37,583 nt of DNA from a virus. The notes beneath the pieces are model-generated. The model was not told the origin of the DNA. It saw only the letters and a program-made list of their open reading frames with translations, and made no database searches. Position 1 is the stretch's first letter. Each line of letters begins with the position of its first letter. The stretch covers positions 1 to 37,583 of IMG/VR virus record IMGVR_UViG_3300009488_000039; one strand, written 5' to 3'. A program made the translations under genes and the position numbers. This document shows, piece by piece, positions 4,353 to 37,583 of this stretch.

Positions 4353-4862
4353 TCAACCCTCTAACTTTTTCGTGTAGAAGATAGCGACGGGCTTGTACCC
4401 GCGCTTCTCCAGAAACGGTCCCAGATCAGGCCCACCAACGGGTGCCTTACTGGACATACCAATCATAGTGCAGCCGAGCTGCCTGAGTGCGTCTTCGGCA
4501 TAAGAGAGCATTGCCGGGGCTAGCTTCTGCCCTCGATGCTCCGCGACGACAAAAAATGCATCCTCCCGTGCCTGCTTCATCTGGGTGTGCATGTCGTTGA
4601 ATACATAGTACTGCAGGTAGCCTACCAGTGTCGAGCCTAGACGGACTGTAAACAGTATGAATTGCCCTGCTGCCTCGGACGCTCGGTAGCGGTCATACGA
4701 AGCATCGAAAGGAGTGTCGAGGTAGAGAGTCTCGGTCTCGTTGTAATGCGCCTCATGTAGTACTCGAAGCTCATCTTCAATATCCGCAAGACGCTCGATA
4801 CCAAAGATGGCATCCCCCGACGTGGCGGGTTGGAACGCATAGTACTTGTTAGTTTGGGGCAT
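4353..4862 (-). CDS. GNAT-family N-acetyltransferase
   Basis: The 169-aa protein fits the GCN5-related acetyltransferase fold. A beta strand (QFILFTVRLGSTLVGYLQYYV) is followed by the acetyl-CoA pyrophosphate-binding segment EHRGQKLAPAMLSYAEDALR, which carries the R-G-x-K/A signature. The C-terminal part has LGPFLEKRGYKPVAIFYTKKL, typical of the last strands. The substrate cannot be told from sequence. It starts by TAATG overlap with the preceding gene and precedes the internal virion genes. GNAT genes in this position are known from other podoviruses, where they could acetylate a host or virion protein after or before injection. The family call is good; the role is open. Confidence 0.75.
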   Translation of the reverse strand: MPQTNKYYAFQPATSGDAIFGIERLADIEDELRVLHEAHYNETETLYLDTPFDASYDRYRASEAAGQFILFTVRLGSTLVGYLQYYVFNDMHTQMKQAREDAFFVVAEHRGQKLAPAMLSYAEDALRQLGCTMIGMSSKAPVGGPDLGPFLEKRGYKPVAIFYTKKLEG

Positions 4863-28245: not shown

Positions 28246-28260
28246 TTACACACTGTGTAA
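28246..28260. promoter_or_regulatory. Dispersed palindrome, copy 1 (C centre)
   Basis: TTACACACTGTGTAA, perfect 7-bp arms with one central base, followed by C. It lies 53 nt before the start of the 182-aa gene, with a second palindrome and a hairpin in between. Confidence 0.8.
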
Positions 28261-28313
28261 CATCGTTCCTAGGAACCGTACTATGAGAGTACGGTAGCCA
28301 ACAGGAGGATGAT

Positions 28314-28862
28314 ATGGCTAAGGCAAAGAAGGAAGCGCCAAAGGTAAGCAAGGGTGCAACGAGAGTTGCAAACACGATTGCCAAAGTGTTTGGCGCAGTT
28401 GCAAAGCAGGGCAATGTGATTACACAGTGTGTAACTTCATTGGTCACAGTGTATGGCGGCAACGCTGTACCAAAGCAGGACGTGAATGCGATAGCCGACA
28501 CGGTTGCGCGTTTGCGTGGGTGGAGCGCCGTAAGCATGGCGGCTCGCAAGTCCGAGGTACGCAAGATCGTTCGGCAGTATCCGCGCATTGCGGAAGCGGT
28601 TGATCGGTACACGGACACCCATGATTCATTCACGTGGCACACTGCCATGCGATTGATCACGTGTCTGCATCGCGAACCGGCGCTTAACAAAGCGTTGGCA
28701 TTGATGGACGCAAGCAACGCGGCAAAGCAAATCACGCCGCTCAAAGCTACGGGTTCTTCAATCTCGCGAATCATGAACCTTGATGTACGTGCGGGGAGTC
28801 GGCTCGCTGGTTTCCAGAACGACTTGGAGACTCTGGCCTTCAAGCACTCAATCAAGTGGTAG
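28314..28862 (+). CDS. First rightward gene: basic helical protein, 182 aa, unknown
   Basis: AGGAGG lies 5 nt before the ATG. The protein has a Lys/Ala-rich start (MAKAKKEAPKVSKGATRVAN), then helices throughout (QDVNAIADTVARLRGWSAVS, RKSEVRKIVRQYPRIAEAVD), one Cys in ITQCVT encoded by a copy of the dispersed palindrome, and a basic end. It has its own leader full of palindromes and its own strong terminator (28870-28897), so it forms a single-gene unit at the divergence point. A DNA-binding or regulatory role is a reasonable guess, but there is no helix-turn-helix I can identify. Confidence 0.75.
   Translation: MAKAKKEAPKVSKGATRVANTIAKVFGAVAKQGNVITQCVTSLVTVYGGNAVPKQDVNAIADTVARLRGWSAVSMAARKSEVRKIVRQYPRIAEAVDRYTDTHDSFTWHTAMRLITCLHREPALNKALALMDASNAAKQITPLKATGSSISRIMNLDVRAGSRLAGFQNDLETLAFKHSIKW
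28420..28434. promoter_or_regulatory. Dispersed palindrome, copy 2 (G centre, inside the 182-aa gene)
   Basis: TTACACAGTGTGTAA inside the coding region, read as I-T-Q-C-V-T. It is about 107 bp into the gene, far from any start codon of its own. Confidence 0.75.
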
Positions 28863-28869
28863 GTAGATC

Positions 28870-28897
28870 GCCCCGGTTTCGACCGGGGCTTTCTTTT
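28870..28897 (+). terminator. Rho-independent terminator after the 182-aa gene
   Basis: GCCCCGGT and ACCGGGGC form an 8-bp stem closed by a stable TTCG tetraloop, followed by TTTCTTTT. It lies 7 bp after the stop codon. Confidence 0.9.
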
Positions 28898-28936
28898 GCC
28901 TACACGTGTGAGATCAGACAAACCTCATAACAGATG

Positions 28937-28952
28937 TTACACAGGTGTGTAA
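28937..28952. promoter_or_regulatory. Dispersed palindrome, copy 3 (variant with GG centre)
   Basis: TTACACAGGTGTGTAA: both 7-bp arms are intact but the centre has two bases, so half-site spacing is one base longer. No gene starts within 400 bp to the right. Confidence 0.65.
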
Positions 28953-29139
28953 CTTAGGAGGCGATGATGCGATGGGATTAAAACCCCCCGGCCCCAAGGC
29001 TTGACACGTGGTAGTTGAGGGGCCGTTATCATCGCAGCTACGTGGCAGGCTACTACTACACTGCGCGTGGACAAAGTGGACAAGGTGGACGTATCAGAGG
29101 CGGCAAAAACGTGATAGTATCAGTAGTTGTAGCTATTAA

Positions 29140-29265
29140 GTCTATAAAGTCCAATAGTAATAGAGAAGAACCCCCGTTTTGCTGCTTGGCCGAGGGGAGA
29201 TAGGTGCCTGACGTAAAATGTATGTGTCTATATCTGTTCACCAGAAACACGTGGACTTTATAGAC
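29140..29265. repeat. 13-bp inverted repeat enclosing 100 bp
   Basis: GTCTATAAAGTCC at 29140-29152 and its exact complement GGACTTTATAGAC at 29253-29265. A 13-bp perfect match at this distance is unlikely by chance. It may form the base of a structured RNA, or be a pair of protein sites. Confidence 0.65.
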
Positions 29266-29353
29266 ATGATGCGCCAAGGCCCCACGGCCCATCACATTAC
29301 GCGGCCAAAGGACATGGACGCACGTCCACTTCGTCCATCAACGCACACGAAAC

Positions 29354-29368
29354 TTACACACTGTGTAA
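29354..29368. promoter_or_regulatory. Dispersed palindrome, copy 4 (C centre)
   Basis: TTACACACTGTGTAA, 14 nt before the ATG of the 75-aa gene and directly abutting its AGGAG ribosome site. Confidence 0.8.
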
Positions 29369-29382
29369 CTAGGAGAACACGC

Positions 29383-29610
29383 ATGAGAAGCATAGATAGT
29401 GAAATGGTATTCGTCGGGCTGAGCCAAGACGACGCTGATGAACTGATCGCAGAACTGGATCACAACGATCATGGGTTCACCGCGCTGGGCGAGAGAATCA
29501 AGGCCCGCATCGAAGGACACCGCACGTTCCTCAAGGCTGTGACTGCGGGTGACGACGATCTCATCGCAGCGGCGGATCGCTCCATGCTCGAACTGTACCC
29601 AGAGAAGTAG
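29383..29610 (+). CDS. Small acidic helical protein, 75 aa
   Basis: AGGAG lies 7 nt before the ATG (MRSIDSEMVFVGLSQDDADE). The protein is helical and acidic (DELIAELDHNDHGFTALGER, FLKAVTAGDDDLIAAADRSM). It is the first gene of the long rightward series and has palindrome copy 4 immediately upstream. The pattern resembles small phage early proteins of unknown function. Confidence 0.7.
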   Translation: MRSIDSEMVFVGLSQDDADELIAELDHNDHGFTALGERIKARIEGHRTFLKAVTAGDDDLIAAADRSMLELYPEK

Positions 29611-29619
29611 GAGAATCGT

Positions 29620-29934
29620 ATGCCAAGCTACGAGATAGACTTGCGAGGCGGACACCAATCCAACATACATGCGGCGAGGCGATGGTGCCGACTGGACAGC
29701 ATGATCATGGAAATGATCTACCAGTTCAGGCAGGACTTGTTATACGAGTATGCAACAGTCCTATCATCCTACCGGGCGTCTCTGCGATGGCGCATAAAGG
29801 AACAGAACCATTGGACCATTGAACTGCTGGCCGATGAGTGGGAGGCGTTATCACTCGGGCTGCGGCACGCTCACGCCCCGCATGGGTTCATGAGCATGTA
29901 TCAGTGGTTGAATCTCAAGAAGGTGGAGGCATGA
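29620..29934 (+). CDS. Protein of unknown function, 104 aa
   Basis: AGGAG precedes the ATG by 6 nt. The protein is helical with many aromatic residues (MIMEMIYQFRQDLLYEYATV, ELLADEWEALSLGLRHAHAP, FMSMYQWLNLKK). It overlaps the next gene as ATGA. No family was recognised. Confidence 0.65.
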   Translation: MPSYEIDLRGGHQSNIHAARRWCRLDSMIMEMIYQFRQDLLYEYATVLSSYRASLRWRIKEQNHWTIELLADEWEALSLGLRHAHAPHGFMSMYQWLNLKKVEA

Positions 29935-30233
29935 GTCCGGTAGTTGAGCAATGGTTCGTCACCTGCCTGTTCGTCATTGGGCCGCAAGGCGAGCGCAGCT
30001 GGCACACGTACTTGGAGGACGCTGAGTATTTCTTTAAGAACTTCATCCCTAACGGCTCCGGCTGTGGATGGTACGCGCATTGGTACACGACTTGGGTAGA
30101 TGAACTGAAGGAGAAGGCAAGTGGGAATGCGACAGACTCGACGATTGCAGCGCGTAGAACGCGCACGAGAGATATATGTCGGGACGTTATTGGCAGTGGG
30201 ATTGCCGAGGCGCATGTTAGACCTGACTGCTAA
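29931..30233 (+). CDS. Small aromatic-rich protein, 100 aa
   Basis: The start overlaps the previous stop as ATGA, with GGTGGAG just before. Residues 1-63 (PVVEQWFVTCLFVIGPQGER, EYFFKNFIPNGSGCGWYAHW, TTWVDELKEKA) look like a real protein and resemble the pattern of the W-containing small proteins further right. The last 37 residues overlap the next gene by 113 bases in another frame and are Thr/Arg-rich, so the true end may be affected by a sequence change or the overlap may be genuine. Confidence 0.55.
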   Translation: MSPVVEQWFVTCLFVIGPQGERSWHTYLEDAEYFFKNFIPNGSGCGWYAHWYTTWVDELKEKASGNATDSTIAARRTRTRDICRDVIGSGIAEAHVRPDC

Positions 30234-30474
30234 GCACAAAGACGCACCGATTAGGCTGAGCGAGCCGCGATACGATTGGGACTGTACCGGCTGGCGCTCA
30301 CAGGTGTGTCAGTTCTATTTCGATTCGTTCCTGCCGACAGCTACACCCCCAAGCACCAAGGCCCAGAAGCGATTCGTGCGCGGGTTTACTAACTGGTGCA
30401 GGAAAGAAGTACAAGCGCGATCAGAGTACGAGGAGTACAGGTTCCACGGCGTGACTGGTCGCAGACGTAAATAG
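30121..30474 (+). CDS. Small W/C-motif protein (FTxWCR family), 117 aa
   Basis: A GTG at 30121 has GGAG 7 nt upstream; an ATG two codons later is also possible. The protein is basic at the N-terminus, with SQVCQFYFDSFLPTATPPST and the ending FVRGFTNWCRKEVQARSEYE. The FTNWCRK motif recurs as FTDWCRQ in the protein at 32324-32641 and YKNWFRR at 32127-32357, so these are related small phage proteins. Function unknown. The stop lies immediately before palindrome copy 5. Confidence 0.6.
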   Translation: MGMRQTRRLQRVERAREIYVGTLLAVGLPRRMLDLTAKHKDAPIRLSEPRYDWDCTGWRSQVCQFYFDSFLPTATPPSTKAQKRFVRGFTNWCRKEVQARSEYEEYRFHGVTGRRRK

Positions 30475-30489
30475 TTACACACTGTGTAA
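30475..30489. promoter_or_regulatory. Dispersed palindrome, copy 5 (C centre)
   Basis: TTACACACTGTGTAA, beginning right after the upstream stop codon and 19 nt before the ATG of the 100-aa gene. Confidence 0.8.
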
Positions 30490-30508
30490 CATCATCAAGG
30501 AGAAGTGA

Positions 30509-30811
30509 ATGGAAGTAAAATCGACGTACCTACTCGAACTCGTAGGTGGTGATCCAACCGAGAAACTACCCGTGTTGCTCAACACCGAAACGAACGAGTT
30601 GACGGAGACAGCACGACTCGTGCTTGAGTCTGCTGTACCGAGAGCTATTGGCTACGATCCTCTGAACTCGGCAGACAGGTTGGAACCGGATGATCGGTTC
30701 TTTCTTGTTGATGCGTTAGCCGACGAGGCCCGTAAGGACAGGCTGCGCGTGGCAAGTGGTGTTCCAAAACACGCGCTCGATTGGATCGAAGTCTTTGTAA
30801 ATGAAATCTAA
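30509..30811 (+). CDS. Acidic protein of unknown function, 100 aa
   Basis: AAGGAG lies about 7 nt before the ATG (MEVKSTYLLELVGGDPTEKL). The protein is acidic and mixed in structure (TETARLVLESAVPRAIGYDP, DDRFFLVDALADEARKDRLR). It is the first gene after palindrome copy 5. No family was recognised. Confidence 0.65.
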   Translation: MEVKSTYLLELVGGDPTEKLPVLLNTETNELTETARLVLESAVPRAIGYDPLNSADRLEPDDRFFLVDALADEARKDRLRVASGVPKHALDWIEVFVNEI

Positions 30812-30839
30812 CCGCACGACAACCAAGAAGGAAATCCCA

Positions 30840-31553
30840 ATGAAAAAATATCTACTCATACTGGCAATGGGCTTGGCGTTATCATCGCCGACGCTCGCGA
30901 ACGAGAACTCGGGATGCCAGAACCCTAACAATCCTCACTACCCATGTGATGAGGACGACGACAGTGACGGAGGCAATGGCAATGGAAACGGCAATGGTGG
31001 TGGTTCGGATTCTGTATCTGACGCTAGTGCTACCGCCGATGCTTCTGCTGCGAGCAATGCTAGTGCTTATGGTACGGGCATTGGTGTGGGTATCGCTGAA
31101 GGCGGCGATGCTTCCGCAACTGGCGGTAGCTCTGATGCTACTGGTGGTAATGCAACTGGTGTTGGTGGCGATGCTGCTGCGAGCGCTGGTGTACGTGGCT
31201 CTGGAAATGCTAGCAACCGCACTTCAGTGTCTACGGCATTCAACTACGAAGTGGCAGCGGCGAGCGCGGCGACGCTCATTACAGGTGTATGCCAAGACGG
31301 TACGTCAGTTCAGGGCGTAAAGTTTGGTATGTCGTCTGCGACGCAATCGGTCTTCTGTAAGTACACAACGCTCTCCCAACTTGCTTTCCAAGCAGGACGG
31401 GTAATGCAATGTGCCGTGGAAGATCACCAGTGTTGGGGTGACAAAGAATTCTTGCGCGAAGAAGGCGTAAGGAATCTGAATCAAGCGGCGATACTCGTAG
31501 GCAAAGAGGATCGCACCGGAGTATTCAAGGCCATATTCGGCTGGCTCTGGTAG
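30840..31553 (+). CDS. Secreted Gly/Ala/Asn-rich protein, 237 aa
   Basis: I chose the ATG at 30840, which begins a clear Sec signal peptide (MKKYLLILAMGLALSSPTLA, cut before NENSG); an upstream ATG would bury it. The mature protein has a Cys/Pro/Asp-rich segment (CQNPNNPHYPCDEDDDSDGG), then a low-complexity Gly/Asn/Ala/Ser/Thr region with repeats such as GDASATGGSSDATGGNATGV, then a C-terminal part with cysteines and a helix (QVMQC-like, DHQCWGDKEFLREEGVRNL). It is probably periplasmic or surface-exposed. It lies directly before the pseudopilin gene, with a GC-rich hairpin between. Function unknown. Confidence 0.7.
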   Translation: MKKYLLILAMGLALSSPTLANENSGCQNPNNPHYPCDEDDDSDGGNGNGNGNGGGSDSVSDASATADASAASNASAYGTGIGVGIAEGGDASATGGSSDATGGNATGVGGDAAASAGVRGSGNASNRTSVSTAFNYEVAAASAATLITGVCQDGTSVQGVKFGMSSATQSVFCKYTTLSQLAFQAGRVMQCAVEDHQCWGDKEFLREEGVRNLNQAAILVGKEDRTGVFKAIFGWLW

Positions 31554-31562
31554 AAACTGTGC

Positions 31563-31622
31563 GGCCCCCGCTCCCTATTCTGTTATGCCTTGTGACGGAC
31601 TGACAGTCATGGGGCGGGGGCC
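31563..31622 (+). repeat. GC-rich 12-bp stem-loop between secreted protein and pseudopilin genes
   Basis: GGCCCCCGCTCC (31563-31574) pairs with GGGGCGGGGGCC (31611-31622), one G-U, around a 36-nt loop. No T run follows, so it is not a standard terminator. It ends 4 bp before palindrome copy 6. It could stabilise the upstream mRNA 3' end or insulate the two genes. Confidence 0.65.
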
Positions 31623-31626
31623 AAAC

Positions 31627-31641
31627 TTACACACTGTGTAA
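31627..31641. promoter_or_regulatory. Dispersed palindrome, copy 6 (C centre)
   Basis: TTACACACTGTGTAA, 19 nt before the ATG of the pseudopilin gene, with AAGGAG between. Confidence 0.8.
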
Positions 31642-31660
31642 CTATTCAAGGAGAATAGAA

Positions 31661-32137
31661 ATGAAAATGTTCAAAGGCTTTACCCTGATTGAGTTGCTGA
31701 TCGCACTCGCGATTGCCAGCATACTCGCAATGTATGCGGGACCGCTGATACTTGGCGGCATCGACTGTAAGAACCAGAAGATCGGATGGATCACCAAGGC
31801 CAAGGTGACTGCTGCCATTGGTGATGTTGGTACGCTCAACCTCAAGCTGAAAATGTACAGGCTCGCGCACAATGATCAGCTGCCAACAGATATGTCCGAG
31901 TTCGGCTTGGATCGGTGGGGCAACCCGTACCAGTTCCTTGACTTCTCAACTGTCAATGGCAATGGACCGAAGCGTAAGAACAGGTCGCAAGTACCAGTCA
32001 ATCTTTACTTCGATATGTACAGCATGGGACCTGACGGTAAGACTGCCACGCCTATGACTTCCACGCCCGGTGAGGACGACATTATACTCGTCGGCCAGTG
32101 GATCGGAGTGGCTTGCTTCTATAACGATGGCAAGTAA
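31661..32137 (+). CDS. Type II secretion-like pseudopilin (GspG-type), 158 aa
   Basis: The N-terminus KGFTLIELLIALAIASILAM is a classic prepilin signal: a short basic leader (MKMFKG), cleavage after Gly6, Phe at +1 and Glu at +5. Later motifs match GspG, the major pseudopilin: DRWGNPY (84-90), YSMGPDG (120-126) and GEDDI (137-141), the last two corresponding to the calcium-binding loop. Two Cys (36 and 152) are unlike most GspG. It would be processed by a host prepilin peptidase and inserted in the inner membrane. AAGGAG lies before the ATG; palindrome copy 6 lies upstream. No other secretion gene is present, so it probably acts on a host system. Confidence 0.88.
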   Translation: MKMFKGFTLIELLIALAIASILAMYAGPLILGGIDCKNQKIGWITKAKVTAAIGDVGTLNLKLKMYRLAHNDQLPTDMSEFGLDRWGNPYQFLDFSTVNGNGPKRKNRSQVPVNLYFDMYSMGPDGKTATPMTSTPGEDDIILVGQWIGVACFYNDGK

Positions 32138-32357
32138 CTACGGAGAGGACGACTACGTTGCGTTCCTCGCATACGCAGGCCCGCCAGCCACAGAAATGCA
32201 AGCAAGGCTAGCTCAGATAAATATGGCAGAGGAATTCTGTCAGTCATGGTTCGCTGGTAAGTCAATCGACGGACAGTGGGCGGGCTTCTATACCGCATAC
32301 AAGAATTGGTTCAGGAGAATGGAATGGTCAAAGCAAACCAACAACTCGATGAATTGA
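32127..32357 (+). CDS. Small AYAGPP-motif protein, 76 aa
   Basis: The start at 32127 (MASNYGEDDYVAFLAYAGPP) overlaps the pseudopilin end by 11 nt; no clear ribosome site was found, so coupling is likely. The pattern LAYAGPP-E...R and FYTAYKNWFRRMEW is shared with the next gene (LLAYAGPPPRERM, FTDWCRQQ) and in part with 30121-30474. It may be a diverged duplicate. Function unknown. Confidence 0.6.
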   Translation: MASNYGEDDYVAFLAYAGPPATEMQARLAQINMAEEFCQSWFAGKSIDGQWAGFYTAYKNWFRRMEWSKQTNNSMN

Positions 32358-32641
32358 TTATGGCTGGGCAACTAGCCGATGAAGAATTCATCGACGCTGT
32401 ACCAAGCGTTATCATCCCGGCGCACGAGGACTTCTACAAACTGCTCGCGTACGCAGGCCCACCACCACGAGAGCGCATGACTCGCGGTGTCACCAAGTTC
32501 AGTAGTTACGTACCGTGGATACGGAAGGTATCGCTAGGACTGCACACGATGTATCCCGATATGAAAGAGTCGGATATTTATTCATTCACAATCCAGTTTA
32601 CGGACTGGTGCAGGCAACAGAGGACGAAAGGAAATGATTGA
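32324..32641 (+). CDS. AYAGPP / FTxWCR-motif protein, 105 aa
   Basis: I chose the ATG at 32324 (MVKANQQLDELIMAGQLADE), 6 nt after AGGAG. The protein has KLLAYAGPPPRERMTRGV in the middle and QFTDWCRQQRTKGND at the end, both shared with small neighbours. It overlaps them by 34 nt upstream and 8 nt downstream. It is a member of a small family in this region; the function is not known. Confidence 0.65.
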   Translation: MVKANQQLDELIMAGQLADEEFIDAVPSVIIPAHEDFYKLLAYAGPPPRERMTRGVTKFSSYVPWIRKVSLGLHTMYPDMKESDIYSFTIQFTDWCRQQRTKGND

Positions 32642-33371
32642 AATTAACGTAAGGATAAAGATAGACACGAACGACCCGAGGGAAGCGTACTTACAAGCAA
32701 TGAGTATGCTGTCATTCAGTGGACACATGTTCGACGTGTCCGACTACTGGCTCGCAAACGGCAAGCCAATCCCGAAACCCGTTGCGCAGTCGATCAAGGA
32801 ACCGATGCATTTCGTTAGGGATTGCGGAAGGGCAGTGCAACATGACCCCGGCTTGCGACTCATGCTGGAAGACTTGCGCGGTATCGCGAACATGACGCCC
32901 GATGCAGCGGAAGAACTCGACGTGATGATAGACAATCTCGTTGAAATGAATGAGCCAGAAGTTACACAGTGTGTAACTGTGCCGAGACTAAACGTGCTGC
33001 CTAATGCTGGTGGTGCGCGTAACATTGACGAGGAAATATCCAACCTCTTTGAGTGCATTCGTAACTCGTCGGAACCATTTCGCGCTCTTGACTTTGACGT
33101 TGGTGAGGCCGACGACCTGACCGAGCCGGATGAAATCCTTGGTTGCCGCTCCATTGATGTTGACATACCTATGGACGCGACGGACATAGAGATTGCTGAG
33201 ATTCTTGCACAGACAGTTCCCGGTAACAGGATCAGCAAGTACTTCAAGATCATGAACGAGTTGCCAGTGTTTGAAGAAGAATCAACACGCATAAAGATCG
33301 GCTCGTACTTCGACGTGACTGTATGGAAGTGGGTAGCGAATGCAGTAATCCCATACCGTGTGTCGCATTGA
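32634..33371 (+). CDS. Acidic protein of unknown function, 245 aa
   Basis: The start MIEINVRIKIDTNDPREAYL overlaps the previous gene by 8 nt. A helical N-terminal half (VRDCGRAVQHDPGLRLMLED, DAAEELDVMIDNLVEMNEP) is followed by VTQCVT, encoded by palindrome copy 7. The second half is acidic (DFDVGEADDLTEPDEI, DIPMDATDIEIAEILAQTVP) and ends with mixed strands (RIKIGSYFDVTVWKWVA). No family was recognised. It is one of the larger proteins of the rightward region. Confidence 0.7.
   Translation: MIEINVRIKIDTNDPREAYLQAMSMLSFSGHMFDVSDYWLANGKPIPKPVAQSIKEPMHFVRDCGRAVQHDPGLRLMLEDLRGIANMTPDAAEELDVMIDNLVEMNEPEVTQCVTVPRLNVLPNAGGARNIDEEISNLFECIRNSSEPFRALDFDVGEADDLTEPDEILGCRSIDVDIPMDATDIEIAEILAQTVPGNRISKYFKIMNELPVFEEESTRIKIGSYFDVTVWKWVANAVIPYRVSH
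32962..32976. promoter_or_regulatory. Dispersed palindrome, copy 7 (G centre, inside the 245-aa gene)
   Basis: TTACACAGTGTGTAA inside the coding region, read as V-T-Q-C-V-T, the same frame as copies 2 and 10. Confidence 0.75.
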
Positions 33372-33499
33372 TTCGGCTGATAGTTTACATCGCGTGGTTC
33401 ACCGTCACCGTTGCCTCGCTCATTGAGGGGCAATACTACTTCACGCCGCTGTTTGCATACTGCACATACGTGGCATTACCTGAGAGGGCAGAGGTATGA
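33368..33499 (+). CDS. Small membrane protein, 43 aa (TTG start)
   Basis: A frame starting at a TTG that overlaps the previous stop as TTGA encodes MIRLIVYIAWFTVTVASLIE and a polar end with AYCTYVALPERAEV. One hydrophobic helix is clear. No ATG is available and no ribosome site is visible, so translation would depend on coupling. It ends in a TGA that overlaps the next ATG. Real but weakly supported. Confidence 0.45.
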   Translation: MIRLIVYIAWFTVTVASLIEGQYYFTPLFAYCTYVALPERAEV

Positions 33500-33663
33500 A
33501 CTGGAATTTCATAGTTACACTCGTCGTGGTTGTATACATAGGCTTATGGATAGCTGACATTGTGACTGCGACCCCCGAGGCCCGTAAGCGAATCTTGCTG
33601 GAAGTTGTGGAGACAACTGCTGTCGCAATGATCTTCGGCACGTTCTTATGGTGGATGCTGTGA
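33496..33663 (+). CDS. Two-helix membrane protein, 55 aa
   Basis: The protein has two hydrophobic helices: NFIVTLVVVVYIGLWIADIV near the start and TTAVAMIFGTFLWWML at the end, joined by a charged loop (PEARKRILLEVVE). GAGG lies just before the ATG. It overlaps both neighbours by four bases. It is a holin-like size, but early position argues for a membrane function during infection, such as exclusion. Not assigned. Confidence 0.6.
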   Translation: MNWNFIVTLVVVVYIGLWIADIVTATPEARKRILLEVVETTAVAMIFGTFLWWML

Positions 33664-33902
33664 GTAGTCGAAGGGAGAGACAGCTACAGTTATTCATCAT
33701 GAGCGTTATCACCGCAGCGCTGTGCTTGTTCGCGCTGTACTTTGCAGTAGCAATCTTGGGAGTCGAAGAAGCGAAGGGCGATGAACTGCCCGAGGCCCCA
33801 AGGTACATGAACCTACCGCCAGCCCCGGACTGTTGGTACTTGTACAACAAAGAGGACAAGCATCGCGAGTGGGCGGCTTGCATGGGTGTCGGCTATGACT
33901 AG
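33660..33902 (+). CDS. Single-helix membrane protein, 80 aa
   Basis: I favour the GTG at 33660, which overlaps the previous stop as GTGA; an ATG four codons earlier is possible. A basic start (SSRRERQLQLF) is followed by a hydrophobic helix (IMSVITAALCLFALYFAVAI). The rest is soluble with PAPDCWYLYNKED and WAACMGVGYD, two Cys that could pair if outside. Function unknown. Confidence 0.6.
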   Translation: MSSRRERQLQLFIMSVITAALCLFALYFAVAILGVEEAKGDELPEAPRYMNLPPAPDCWYLYNKEDKHREWAACMGVGYD

Positions 33903-34083
33903 ATACCCGCTGGAAAAATACGGGCAATGGGCTGGCAACGAACGCGGCTACTCTTATAACCCTAAGCGATGTGCGAAAGAAGTGTGGCCTTCAAGCGGAT
34001 GGGTTTCCGCTCAGTGCAGTCGAAGGAATGGTCACGGCATCGACAAACTGTTCTGCAAGCAACATAAGAACACCACTGTGTAA
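33895..34083 (+). CDS. Small Cys/His (zinc-type) protein, 62 aa
   Basis: The ATG at 33895 overlaps the previous gene by 8 nt. The pattern RCAKEVW-...-VSAQCSRRNGHGIDKLF followed by CKQH gives Cys, Cys, His and Cys-x-x-His positions that could hold a zinc ion. Very similar short proteins (QC-R--GHG-DGLYCKQH) are common in tailed phages; their role is not known to me. Its stop codon lies in a decayed copy of the palindrome. Confidence 0.7.
   Translation: MTRYPLEKYGQWAGNERGYSYNPKRCAKEVWPSSGWVSAQCSRRNGHGIDKLFCKQHKNTTV
34069..34083. promoter_or_regulatory. Decayed palindrome over a stop codon
   Basis: The right arm TGTGTAA (34077-34083, then C) is intact and the left arm is degraded to an ACACCAC-like sequence. 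It contains the stop codon of the zinc-type gene. It lies 9 bp from the intact copy 8 and may be a remnant. Confidence 0.4.
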
Positions 34084-34092
34084 CGACCAAGG

Positions 34093-34107
34093 TTACACAG
34101 TGTGTAA
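34093..34107. promoter_or_regulatory. Dispersed palindrome, copy 8 (G centre)
   Basis: TTACACAGTGTGTAA within the 111-bp gap before the 46-aa gene. With its flanks (GG before, GGTT after) it is an inverted partner of copy 9, 59 bp to the right. Confidence 0.8.
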
Positions 34108-34166
34108 GGTTTGCGTTGGGTAACGGGATTTTTTGCATTCTCCTTGCCCGGAGCTTGGCGCGAACC

Positions 34167-34181
34167 TTACACAGTGTGTAA
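34167..34181. promoter_or_regulatory. Dispersed palindrome, copy 9 (G centre)
   Basis: TTACACAGTGTGTAA, 13 nt before the ATG of the 46-aa gene. With its flanks (AACC before, CC after) it mirrors copy 8, so the two form an extended 21-bp inverted pair with one central mismatch. Confidence 0.8.
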
Positions 34182-34194
34182 CCGAGGAAATGAA

Positions 34195-34335
34195 ATGGAA
34201 GAACTATTGCAGATTATGAAGAACACGATGAAGGACTACGAGAATCTACGAGGAACACGTGTGGCAATCTGTCTGGAAACTGAAGTTGAATTGTGGATCG
34301 AACACTTGGAGGGCTTAATCAATGAGGATGCTTAA
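34195..34335 (+). CDS. Small acidic helical protein, 46 aa
   Basis: The ATG at 34195 (MEELLQIMKNTMKDYENLRG) follows GAGGAAA and lies 13 nt after palindrome copy 9; the frame runs further upstream through the palindrome, but without a ribosome site. One or two helices (ETEVELWIEHLEGLIN). It overlaps the next gene by 14 nt. Function unknown. Confidence 0.6.
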   Translation: MEELLQIMKNTMKDYENLRGTRVAICLETEVELWIEHLEGLINEDA

Positions 34336-34567
34336 ATATATGTCATGGTCATTCTGGTGTGGGTTCATGACCGATGTTGGAATTCATATGGCTGTGCAAG
34401 ATTGGTACGGACTAGAGAGGTACATCGAGTTCTGCCGTGAACACTGGATCGACTTGCCTTGGACAGTCGGTGCGTTAATTGCGGGAGTCGCCGTTTACTT
34501 GTACATATCGCGGCGACTGCGCGTGTGGACTTTCATGATGGAGAACGACAATGAACAAACTGATTGA
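34322..34567 (+). CDS. Membrane protein, 81 aa
   Basis: The protein has an aromatic, possibly membrane-associated start (MRMLKYMSWSFWCGFMTDVG), a polar middle and a clear hydrophobic helix PWTVGALIAGVAVYLYISRR followed by basic residues. GGAGGG lies about 8 nt before the ATG. It overlaps both neighbours. Function unknown. Confidence 0.6.
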   Translation: MRMLKYMSWSFWCGFMTDVGIHMAVQDWYGLERYIEFCREHWIDLPWTVGALIAGVAVYLYISRRLRVWTFMMENDNEQTD

Positions 34568-34700
34568 TATGCTACTTGGCAAGCCCAAGGCCCATCAACT
34601 GGAACCGGGAATGAACCGCAAGCAAAAGCGCATACGTTCCGCGCAGTACCGCAAGCGCATGGCAGCACCCAAACGTAAGAAGCACGAGGGGAGAGGCTAA
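34551..34700 (+). CDS. Small, very basic protein, 49 aa
   Basis: GGAG lies 7 nt before the ATG (MNKLIDMLLGKPKAHQLEPG). The rest is strongly basic (MNRKQKRIRSAQYRKRMAAP, then KRKKHEG), with a net charge suited to binding nucleic acid. It overlaps the previous gene by 17 nt and is joined to the next by TAATG. It may be an early RNA- or DNA-binding protein; no family recognised. Confidence 0.6.
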   Translation: MNKLIDMLLGKPKAHQLEPGMNRKQKRIRSAQYRKRMAAPKRKKHEGRG

Positions 34701-34969
34701 TGGCTAAGTATCAATTCGCAGCAACAATGCAAGGGCGCGGCAACGAAGTGGAACGCTACGGCACGAAAGCATCCGGCGTTATCACGCAGGCGGCTGGCTG
34801 GCGCGGCTGCATTAAGACGAGGGTGTACCACGACGACAAAGGGCGTGACAGGTTCGTTGTTACAATGGAACCGTGGATGAATGGCGACGGTGGCATAACA
34901 GTACTCGCCGAAGGAATCCTTAACGCTACAATCACTGACCCGTTCATCGTCCCGGCGGTGTTCGCATGA
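34700..34969 (+). CDS. Protein of unknown function, 89 aa
   Basis: The start MAKYQFAATMQGRGNEVERY overlaps the previous stop as TAATG. The rest is beta-rich (CIKTRVYHDDKGRDRFVVTM, GDGGITVLAEGILNATI). It overlaps the next gene as ATGA. The pattern is that of a small compact beta protein; no family was recognised. Confidence 0.65.
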   Translation: MAKYQFAATMQGRGNEVERYGTKASGVITQAAGWRGCIKTRVYHDDKGRDRFVVTMEPWMNGDGGITVLAEGILNATITDPFIVPAVFA

Positions 34970-35385
34970 TCCTCTACCCCGATATGACCCGTCACCAGTA
35001 TGACGGGTCCGAAACATTTGTGTTTGCAGCGCCGTGTACCAAGTCAGAGTGGTACATCATGAAGTCAATGAGCGCAACCGAAGACGATGGTAGTCACTTG
35101 CCGTACCTGATAAGCGAAGAAGATGGCGAGGACGTATGCATCATCTTACGTTACCCAGAAACCATTGACGACCACGCCGTTGAGACAGCTGCATGGGTAC
35201 GTATCAGACACGAATTCACCGGCATGATCTATGCCATGAAGTACGATCCACAACCACCAAGTACGTCGATTGCATCCGTGATTGCGCGTACCGCTGGTGC
35301 CAACCCCAAACAGGTCGGACACTTCGACCTACAACACCACCAAAGGAAACAGCATGAACTTGAGACAAACGAAAAAGCTAATTAA
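34966..35385 (+). CDS. Protein of unknown function, 139 aa
   Basis: The start overlaps the previous stop as ATGA (MILYPDMTRHQYDGSETFVF). It is mixed alpha/beta (EDVCIILRYPETIDDHAVET, AAWVRIRHEFTGMIYAMKYD) and ends in a polar tail (HFDLQHHQRKQHELETNEK), whose last 32 bases overlap the ATPase gene. No family was recognised. Confidence 0.6.
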   Translation: MILYPDMTRHQYDGSETFVFAAPCTKSEWYIMKSMSATEDDGSHLPYLISEEDGEDVCIILRYPETIDDHAVETAAWVRIRHEFTGMIYAMKYDPQPPSTSIASVIARTAGANPKQVGHFDLQHHQRKQHELETNEKAN

Positions 35386-36421
35386 GTCTGTGTTCAAACG
35401 CCAGATAAAAACTGGCGAGCGATTCAGCATCGAGATTGTATCCGGTCCCGGCCTTGGTAAGTCAGAGGCTATGGCACAGGTAGCTCAAGAGTTAACGAAA
35501 GAGATCGCGGAGCCTGTAGGCTTTTCTCCGTTCTTTCTGTCTACGCTTGAGCAACCAGACGTGCGCGGCTTCGGTTTACCGGCCAAGGATTCGGATGGTT
35601 CTTCCATTATGAAGTACACCGCTGCACCGTGGATGCCGAGAGTCGGCGCACCGCAGCATGGCATTGTGTTCCTTGACGAGTTTCGTCAGGCTGGGCATGA
35701 CGTACAGAAACCCGCCGCCGAGCTTCTACTCAACGGACGAGTAGGAGAGTCACAGCTACCTCCCACGTGGATGGTAGTTGCAGCAAGCAACCGTGAGAGT
35801 GATCGGTCAGGCGTACAGCGCGAGCTTGCGTTCGTGTCCAACAGACGTATGGAAATCAAGGTCAGTCCCGACTTGGATTCATGGGTCGAGTGGGCAGAGG
35901 TAAGGGCAATTCATTGGGCCGCTATCGCATTCGCGAGGCACCAGCCCGGCCTTATCTTCAAGGAAGAAACCCCCGACAAGCCGGGACCGTTCACTACTCC
36001 CCGGTCCTTTGTCAAAATGTCCTACCTCATTGGTGAGTTGGATATGGAAATGTTCACGGAAGCAGCTGCCGGTATGATCGGCGAAGGCACTGCCGCCGCG
36101 TTCGTTTCATTCTTGAGAGTCGTGGAGCAACTACCGGCCTTTGAGGATATTGTCGCCGACCCGAAGAAGTGCAAGCTGCCCGACAAGGATCGACCTGATG
36201 CGCAGTACGCAACGATGCAGATGATCGCGCATCGGGTAGACGGAACCACTGCTAGGCCAGCATTCAACTATCTCAAGCGTATGGACAGAGAGTTTCAGGT
36301 TGCTGGATTGAAGGCGACGCTTCGGCGCTGCCCCGCAGTTTTACAGAGTCAGGACTTTGCCCATTGGGTTAGAGACAACAAAGACTTGCTCGTTAACGCT
36401 AACATGCTGGACGCCAGCTAG
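35354..36421 (+). CDS. MoxR-like AAA+ ATPase, 355 aa
   Basis: I chose the ATG at 35354 (MNLRQTKKLIKSVFKRQIKT), preceded by AAGGAAACAGC, since an earlier frame start lacks a ribosome site. Walker A is GPGLGKS (31-37), Walker B is GIVFLDEF (103-110) and the sensor-1 region is VAASNRES. QPDVRGFGLP before Walker B is the usual MoxR insert. MoxR ATPases act as hexameric chaperones that remodel partner proteins, usually with a VWA-domain partner. The next gene is an acidic protein and a VWA partner may follow beyond the window. Its target in this phage is unknown. Confidence 0.88.
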   Translation: MNLRQTKKLIKSVFKRQIKTGERFSIEIVSGPGLGKSEAMAQVAQELTKEIAEPVGFSPFFLSTLEQPDVRGFGLPAKDSDGSSIMKYTAAPWMPRVGAPQHGIVFLDEFRQAGHDVQKPAAELLLNGRVGESQLPPTWMVVAASNRESDRSGVQRELAFVSNRRMEIKVSPDLDSWVEWAEVRAIHWAAIAFARHQPGLIFKEETPDKPGPFTTPRSFVKMSYLIGELDMEMFTEAAAGMIGEGTAAAFVSFLRVVEQLPAFEDIVADPKKCKLPDKDRPDAQYATMQMIAHRVDGTTARPAFNYLKRMDREFQVAGLKATLRRCPAVLQSQDFAHWVRDNKDLLVNANMLDAS

Positions 36422-36429
36422 GAGGCACC

Positions 36430-37583
36430 ATGTCAGATTTTGACAGCGACATTGGAAAATTGCTCAACGATGTACTGGACGATAAGCCGGTTGTTTTGCC
36501 GGAAGATCAGCCAGCCACGCCCGAGGAAGTTACGGTAGTTGTTCAGGCAACCGAGCCTGATGAAACGAACGACATACTCGGGGACTTTATGCAAGAAATC
36601 GCGGACGAGCAGGTGGGCGTTATCACTACAGCACCTACGCCGCCACCCGACAGCCCTGAGGCAATCGAGCAGGAAGTTACACAGTGTGTAAGTAATGGCC
36701 TGTCTACCGAAGATGTCTTGGAGGGAATCATAGCCGAAGGCTTGGAACAGGAGTCGGAAGACGTTGGGCAAACCTCTATAGATGAGACGCCCATTCAAAC
36801 CGACGAAGCTGACGCTGGGGAGCTGGAGGCAGCCGACGGAGCTGACGCCGCGACCGTGCCTGAAGCGACTGAGATTTCCGAACACGTGTTCTCAGAGCCG
36901 ACAGACGAAGGCGTGACAGTGCCCGTCCCGACGTTCACCAGTGATGAGATTGCAGAGAACTTGGACATACGGAACTTTGCAACGCTCGTTACGTTGAACA
37001 CGGCTCGGTGGCACGCCAAGGTGAAGGACCACAAGGCTGCGAAGGATGCGGCTGATGCGAGTGGAGCCGATGCGGCGGCGTTTGAGGCACGTAAGAAGTT
37101 GCTGGTCGGAGCCGACGAGAAGCTGCGAGCAGTACACAAGGCGATTGACCTAGCACGTACCGAGCATTACCGCTTGACACTGCCGTGGTCAACAGTCGGC
37201 GTGAACGACCAAGGCAAGCGATCAGGTGGGCGGCTCATGCCCAACACGCTGTTCATGGAGTACACGACTGCTATGGCCCGCTGTAAGATGGATATGGACA
37301 CCAAGTTAACCGTCTTCGAGACTGCATACCCGATGCTAGTTTCGATTGCGGAACAGAACTTGGGTACTGCGTTCGATCCGTCCGAGTATCCTAACCCGTC
37401 GAGTATTCGCGAACACTTCCGACTGTCATTCGACTTCAATCCTATCCCGGTAGGGTCGGACTTCAAGGGACTACAGGACGCGCAGATACAGAAGTTGGGT
37501 ACGGCATTGGAGAGTAAGACGCGCACCATGCTGGAAAACGCGATGCAGGATGCGTGGACGCAGTTGTACGAGAGTGTGCAACA
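36430..37583 (+). CDS. Acidic ATPase-partner protein, N-terminal 384 aa (cut by the window edge)
   Basis: AGGAGG lies 4 nt before the ATG and the frame is open to the right edge. The first 140 residues are very acidic and Pro/Glu-rich, probably disordered (MSDFDSDIGKLLNDVLDDKP, ADEQVGVITTAPTPPP), and include VTQCVSN, encoded by palindrome copy 10. The second part is helical (WHAKVKDHKAAKDAADASGA, ADEKLRAVHKAIDLARTEHY), with LPWSTVGVNDQGKRSGGRLM and AYPMLVSIAEQNLGTAFDPS. Its place after a MoxR ATPase suggests a partner such as the DUF3150-type proteins seen in this context; this is a weak resemblance. Confidence 0.7.
   Translation, partial: MSDFDSDIGKLLNDVLDDKPVVLPEDQPATPEEVTVVVQATEPDETNDILGDFMQEIADEQVGVITTAPTPPPDSPEAIEQEVTQCVSNGLSTEDVLEGIIAEGLEQESEDVGQTSIDETPIQTDEADAGELEAADGADAATVPEATEISEHVFSEPTDEGVTVPVPTFTSDEIAENLDIRNFATLVTLNTARWHAKVKDHKAAKDAADASGADAAAFEARKKLLVGADEKLRAVHKAIDLARTEHYRLTLPWSTVGVNDQGKRSGGRLMPNTLFMEYTTAMARCKMDMDTKLTVFETAYPMLVSIAEQNLGTAFDPSEYPNPSSIREHFRLSFDFNPIPVGSDFKGLQDAQIQKLGTALESKTRTMLENAMQDAWTQLYESVQ
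36677..36691. promoter_or_regulatory. Dispersed palindrome, copy 10 (G centre, inside the acidic partner gene)
   Basis: TTACACAGTGTGTAA inside coding sequence, read as V-T-Q-C-V-S. It is in the disordered acidic part, where the encoded peptide should be tolerated. It is the last copy before the window edge. Confidence 0.75.

Follow-up and report, generated by a model that had tools for sequence, protein, structure and literature searches.

Why does a phage carry a single pseudopilin gene, and on what could its product act? The gene lies at positions 31661–32137 (+) of the window, by which we mean all 37,583 bases of the IMG/VR record, a record that may be incomplete. The open reading frame spans exactly these positions, starts with ATG behind a ribosome-binding site AGGAG (31650–31654, +) and encodes a protein of 158 residues, P0001. 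No genes of a gsp operon were recognised around it, and no prepilin peptidase gene was identified within the window. From the DNA alone, the original prediction had described the product as a phage-encoded GspG-like pseudopilin and had pointed to a complete prepilin signal, three GspG motifs, two atypical cysteines and a palindrome 19 nt before the start codon. These four observations hold, while the relation to GspG turned out to be less direct.

The protein begins with the leader MKMFKG (31661–31678, +), with a predicted cut before the phenylalanine of GFTLIE, continues as FTLIELLIALAIASILAMYAGPLIL and ends in a globular part that contains DRWGNPY, YSMGPDG and GEDDI. The leader is short and positive, glycine precedes the cut, Phe stands at +1 and Glu at +5, and a hydrophobic helix follows, so that the signal KG/FTLIE is complete; Pfam N_methyl (34.8 bits, cut-off 21.2, E 1.1e-8) and TIGR02532 (35 bits, cut-off 16.3) are both passed. 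The hydrophobic N-terminal helix region, FTLIELLIALAIASILAMYAGPLILGGID, covers 31679–31765 (+), and a structure prediction made from two sequences (pLDDT 37) places a helix at residues 9–30 of a low-confidence model. Behind the helix follows a 10-residue insertion, CKNQKIGWIT (31766–31795, +), that none of 14 aligned relatives has. The DRWGNPY motif lies at 31910–31930 (+) and the clade motif region RK....VPVN..FD.YSMGPDG...P...GEDDI at 31970–32083 (+); DRWGNPY, GPDG and GEDD line up with the matching motifs of E. coli GspG. The C-terminal loop of GspG has a calcium role, and in the alignment the acidic residues of the phage motif region match this loop region as a candidate site. The two cysteines, C36 and C152, occupy positions that are free of Cys in all 14 aligned relatives, several of which carry Cys elsewhere. 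Near the C terminus the alignment shows that two residues are missing from the otherwise conserved stretch DDIVRANNG. The identity of the protein as a pseudopilin is well supported.

Is it then a copy of the GspG of type II secretion? With GspG (TIGR01710, PulG, XcpT) it shares the prepilin signal, the helix and the PWGNPY, GPDG and EDD regions. Pfam T2SSG, however, is passed by less than 1 bit (21.8 bits, cut-off 21) and over residues 44–76 only (33 residues), and the NCBIfam GspG equivalog TIGR01710 gives 31 bits against a cut-off of 88.85. In the search with hidden Markov models that had been named as the check, N_methyl is passed clearly, T2SSG barely, and the equivalog is missed by far. 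A profile of lone bacterial pseudopilins, built without the phage protein, scores it at 112 bits (112.2), and at 92 after removal of the first 30 residues; the GspG profile gives 31 and 12 bits, respectively. A chance match to the clade profile is excluded, because 200 shuffles of residues 31–158 reach at most 25.1 bits. A maximum-likelihood tree puts the phage protein, which has a long branch (1.33), together with the lone pseudopilins on one side of a split and true GspG on the other; this split has a support of 100/100. The clade-specific motifs RK...VPVN and G.WIGVA are kept by the phage protein and absent from GspG. The two families are related (hhalign probability 99.8% between their profiles), yet in the lone clade the loop before PWGNPY is shorter and a different insertion, RKD...VPxNxDYD, follows this motif; in the phage protein the GspG loop between the helix and the first strand is missing. 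As judged from profiles and tree, the lone pseudopilins are relatives of GspG that form a separate sister clade. Of the original prediction, the lone, phage-encoded and GspG-like character therefore stands, and a copy of type II secretion GspG does not.

A Desulfobulbaceae protein with 38% identity over almost the full length came from a scan of 84,980 genomes. Thirteen of 198 sampled Desulfobacterota genomes gave matches at E 1e-7 or better (best identity 46%), and two lone pseudopilins are plasmid-borne, from Comamonadaceae and Legionella adelaidensis. Identity between the phage protein and the 14 aligned relatives ranges from 29 to 47% over the full length, and the order of the motifs is the same. 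The bacterial proteins are annotated only as GspG or as prepilin-type protein and, as with the phage copy, the neighbours read include no other recognised pilus-assembly genes. Of the 13 bacterial genomes with a lone pseudopilin, 11 also encode a true GspG that exceeds the cut-off, and other pilin-like proteins occur in genomes with clade members too.

What adjoins the bacterial genes instead is a receptor. The downstream gene could be read in 15 bacterial loci; in 13 of these it lies directly 3′ of the pseudopilin gene and encodes a receptor with an HD-GYP (n=10), a GGDEF-EAL (n=2) or a hybrid histidine kinase (n=1) output; the receptor neighbour is absent in L086 and L089, and L087 stops at the contig end. 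The gap between the two genes is 11–14 nt in 8 of 11 measured loci. The receptors consist of a transmembrane segment, a periplasmic domain, a second transmembrane segment and HAMP, followed by HD-GYP, GGDEF-EAL or histidine kinase. Their first ~300 residues, before HAMP, are alike across the three output types (E 3e-38 for L080 against L064, a GGDEF-EAL receptor; E 3e-29 for the input halves of L080 and L081), and in most linked receptors this input half is conserved while the outputs vary and are mutually unrelated. Because the input halves are alike and the outputs differ, the pseudopilin appears tied to the input half; as read from gene order and alignment, these two form the constant element of the bacterial loci. 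The bacterial lone pseudopilin is probably a partner on the receptor's input side. Pairing of a pilin-like protein with a receptor that has different output domains in different lineages apparently makes a hitherto undescribed input device, of which the phage carries the input part alone; we found no paper on a pseudopilin with an HD-GYP receptor in the part of the literature that was covered. The cassette of lone pseudopilin and exchangeable-output receptor was seen in L078–L085, L088, L090, L059, L064 and L081, often with a small lipoprotein-like protein (L080, L082, L083, L084, L085) or an upstream membrane protein (L079, L089). In the Comamonadaceae locus (L063:5427-5565) the annotated receptor gene has no input-half match and a similar start lies in another frame right behind the pseudopilin, which reads as a frameshift or sequence error.

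How does the gene sit in the phage? It is part of the phage genome. Leftward genes code for the portal, the large terminase, the major head protein and internal virion proteins, and among these virion genes lies an acetyltransferase-like gene (phrog_1249; 4353–4862, −). The nearest annotated phages are the Rhizobium phages RHph_TM3_14A / TM29 (portal 48%, large terminase 44%), which lack a match to the pseudopilin. By portal, 36 viral contigs match at 65–86% identity and a 37th at only 25%. In the sister phage G021 the order of several early genes is kept, with an ATPase downstream that is 75% identical; endonuclease, polymerase, exonuclease, helicase and primase genes follow the ATPase. A lytic life is likely, because nine related records, which may be incomplete, gave no tyrosine integrase; no tRNA was found in the window. 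Large-terminase relatives occur in 3 of 247 Desulfobacterota genomes at no more than 40% identity, and for this reason no host was called.

Upstream of the pseudopilin gene, a gene for a small secreted-type protein with a signal peptide and a Gly/Ser/Ala-rich middle (30840–31553, +) has no relatives in the annotated phages, and 107 nt with the pseudopilin's own palindrome separate the two. Downstream, the next early gene (MASNYGEDDYVAFLAYAGPP...; 32127–32357, +) overlaps the pseudopilin by 11 nt; it encodes a small protein with a relative in G021 (L040:4783-4992) and is not a receptor. The palindrome TTACACACTGTGTAA at 31627–31641, 19 nt before the pseudopilin start codon as originally noted, is one of nine such sites, which the window has only from 28246 to 36691. 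On both strands this gives 18 matches where 0.84 are expected, a count that none of 100 shuffles reached. The GC content of the gene (0.512) is close to that of the phage (0.531).

Among phages the gene appears to be rare, although its N terminus is not. Among 9138 frames from 66 loci of related phages, neither a family member nor a prepilin motif combined with a hydrophobic helix turned up; annotated phages gave no relative, and single-protein and family-alignment searches of viral contigs gave no other viral copy. One match in G021 (L038, E 4e-4) was rejected as an antisense frame over the end of the DNA polymerase gene. Because the family is absent from the related-phage frames, its presence here looks like a single gain. 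Several phage families in PHROG (3433 'pilin', 27437, 13280, 10597 and 11263) share the prepilin N terminus; these matches fall within residues 1–57 only and leave out the GspG-like domain. Likewise, 70 of 80 viral contigs read from a motif scan, some of which may be host DNA, encode a prepilin-type N terminus, and many of these look like ordinary pilins; the lone-clade profile scores the best of the 70 at 57 bits, compared with 112 for the phage pseudopilin. The original prediction had spoken of few phage examples with a calcium-loop GspG motif; the prepilin signal as such is ordinary in phages, and the GspG-like, receptor-linked domain is not. We found no paper on phage-encoded pseudopilins in the part of the literature covered. 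Two short, lone prepilin-like families recur across the scanned viral contigs, one (...GINGMTESRCIEGYKFVVGERG...) in L135, L138, L160, L163, L180 and L195 and another (...SKQSCIAAGGKWSEGIQYGRITQLC...) in L142, L201, L203 and L185.

We tentatively favour, at somewhat less than an even chance, the view that the phage pseudopilin is a captured envelope protein that acts on a host receptor of the linked type, as its ligand or as a decoy. Absence from the sister phages examined, a regulatory signal of its own and bacterial relatives are the features of a moron, and such an accessory gene would have been taken from the clade of bacterial lone pseudopilins, whose members would serve as periplasmic input partners of transmembrane receptors. 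Expressed as part of an early-type operon under palindrome-marked phage control, the protein would be placed in the inner membrane, and the host's prepilin peptidase would cleave it. It could then replace or compete with the host pseudopilin at the receptor, and a changed cyclic-di-GMP or phosphorelay output would alter pili, adhesion or motility during infection. This reading draws on the clade-profile score, the position in the tree, the identity to the aligned relatives, the clade-specific motifs, the receptor linkage in bacteria with its shared input half, the overlap with the next gene and the palindrome upstream. It assumes that the phage's own host has such a receptor and that bacterial pseudopilins and receptors bind directly. 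Having no receptor gene next to it, the phage protein is by sequence a member of the receptor-linked clade and not a complete pseudopilin-receptor system. Against the reading stand its long branch, the insertion, the two residues gone from DDIVRANNG and the fact that it is a single case; the first three suggest that receptor binding may have been lost. The wider proposal, that a transmembrane sensor whose outputs can be exchanged (HD-GYP, GGDEF-EAL or hybrid kinase) is gated by lone pseudopilins and that the phage took the pseudopilin alone to reset host cyclic-di-GMP or kinase signalling as ligand or decoy, is possible but on balance rather doubtful.

Could the protein instead poison host filaments? 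Next in rank, and the main rival, is that the protein, once processed by the host peptidase, joins type IV pili or type II pseudopili of the host and, by capping or destabilising them, prevents superinfection or re-adsorption that depends on pili; we regard this as possible though not probable. The complete signal and pilin helix would permit entry into such filaments, a partner gene would be unnecessary, true GspG and other pilin-like proteins are there to be joined in bacterial genomes with clade members, and the two Cys positions and the insertion are unique to the phage copy. The globular domain, however, groups with the receptor-linked clade and not with GspG or known pilins, host and receptor are putative, and the sister phages examined do without the gene. 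A host gene that was recently picked up and is retained although it does nothing for the phage would fit its presence in this phage alone among those searched and its bacterial nearest relatives. Such a passenger is improbable for a gene that is intact and runs into the next phage gene, is preceded by a good ribosome-binding site and a phage palindrome, fits the phage in composition and has kept its motifs over a long divergence from the bacterial members.

The suggestion in the original prediction that the pseudopilin helps to export the secreted-type protein encoded just upstream draws on adjacency and is very improbable, given the palindrome-bearing spacer between the genes and bacterial relatives that adjoin receptors and not secreted substrates. 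Least probable of all, to the point of being negligible, is a true GspG copy: N_methyl, the narrow T2SSG match and the profile-profile match of the clade speak for it, and the equivalog score, the position outside the GspG clade at 100/100 and the missing loop with its different insertion speak against it. 

To return to the favoured reading, a ligand or decoy at the receptor would let a virus reach cyclic-di-GMP and surface behaviour through the periplasm. It offers an alternative to the common view of phage pilin-like proteins as nothing more than pilus blockers. The phage may thus use the pseudopilin to interfere with host surface signalling or with pili.

Palindrome sites of the form TTACACA(C/G)TGTGTAA stand in several cases about 10–20 nt before early gene starts, and the sisters (L040, L050, L052 and L057) have their own versions: TTACAACnGTTGTAA ten times in L050, TACACAn3TGTGTA seven times in L040 and TCACAC..GTGTGA in L052, a pattern that looks like joint change of a phage-specific regulator and its sites. 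One early gene contains the palindrome within its own coding sequence (28314–28862 of the window and L040:981-1532, with GNVITQCV in both phages) and is a candidate for this regulator. To the eye, a set of small early proteins resemble one another and share an LL(A/V)xxGPP-type motif; they are encoded at 30121–30474, 32127–32357 and 32276–32641 and in several open reading frames of L040 and L050, and have apparently been duplicated and varied within each phage.
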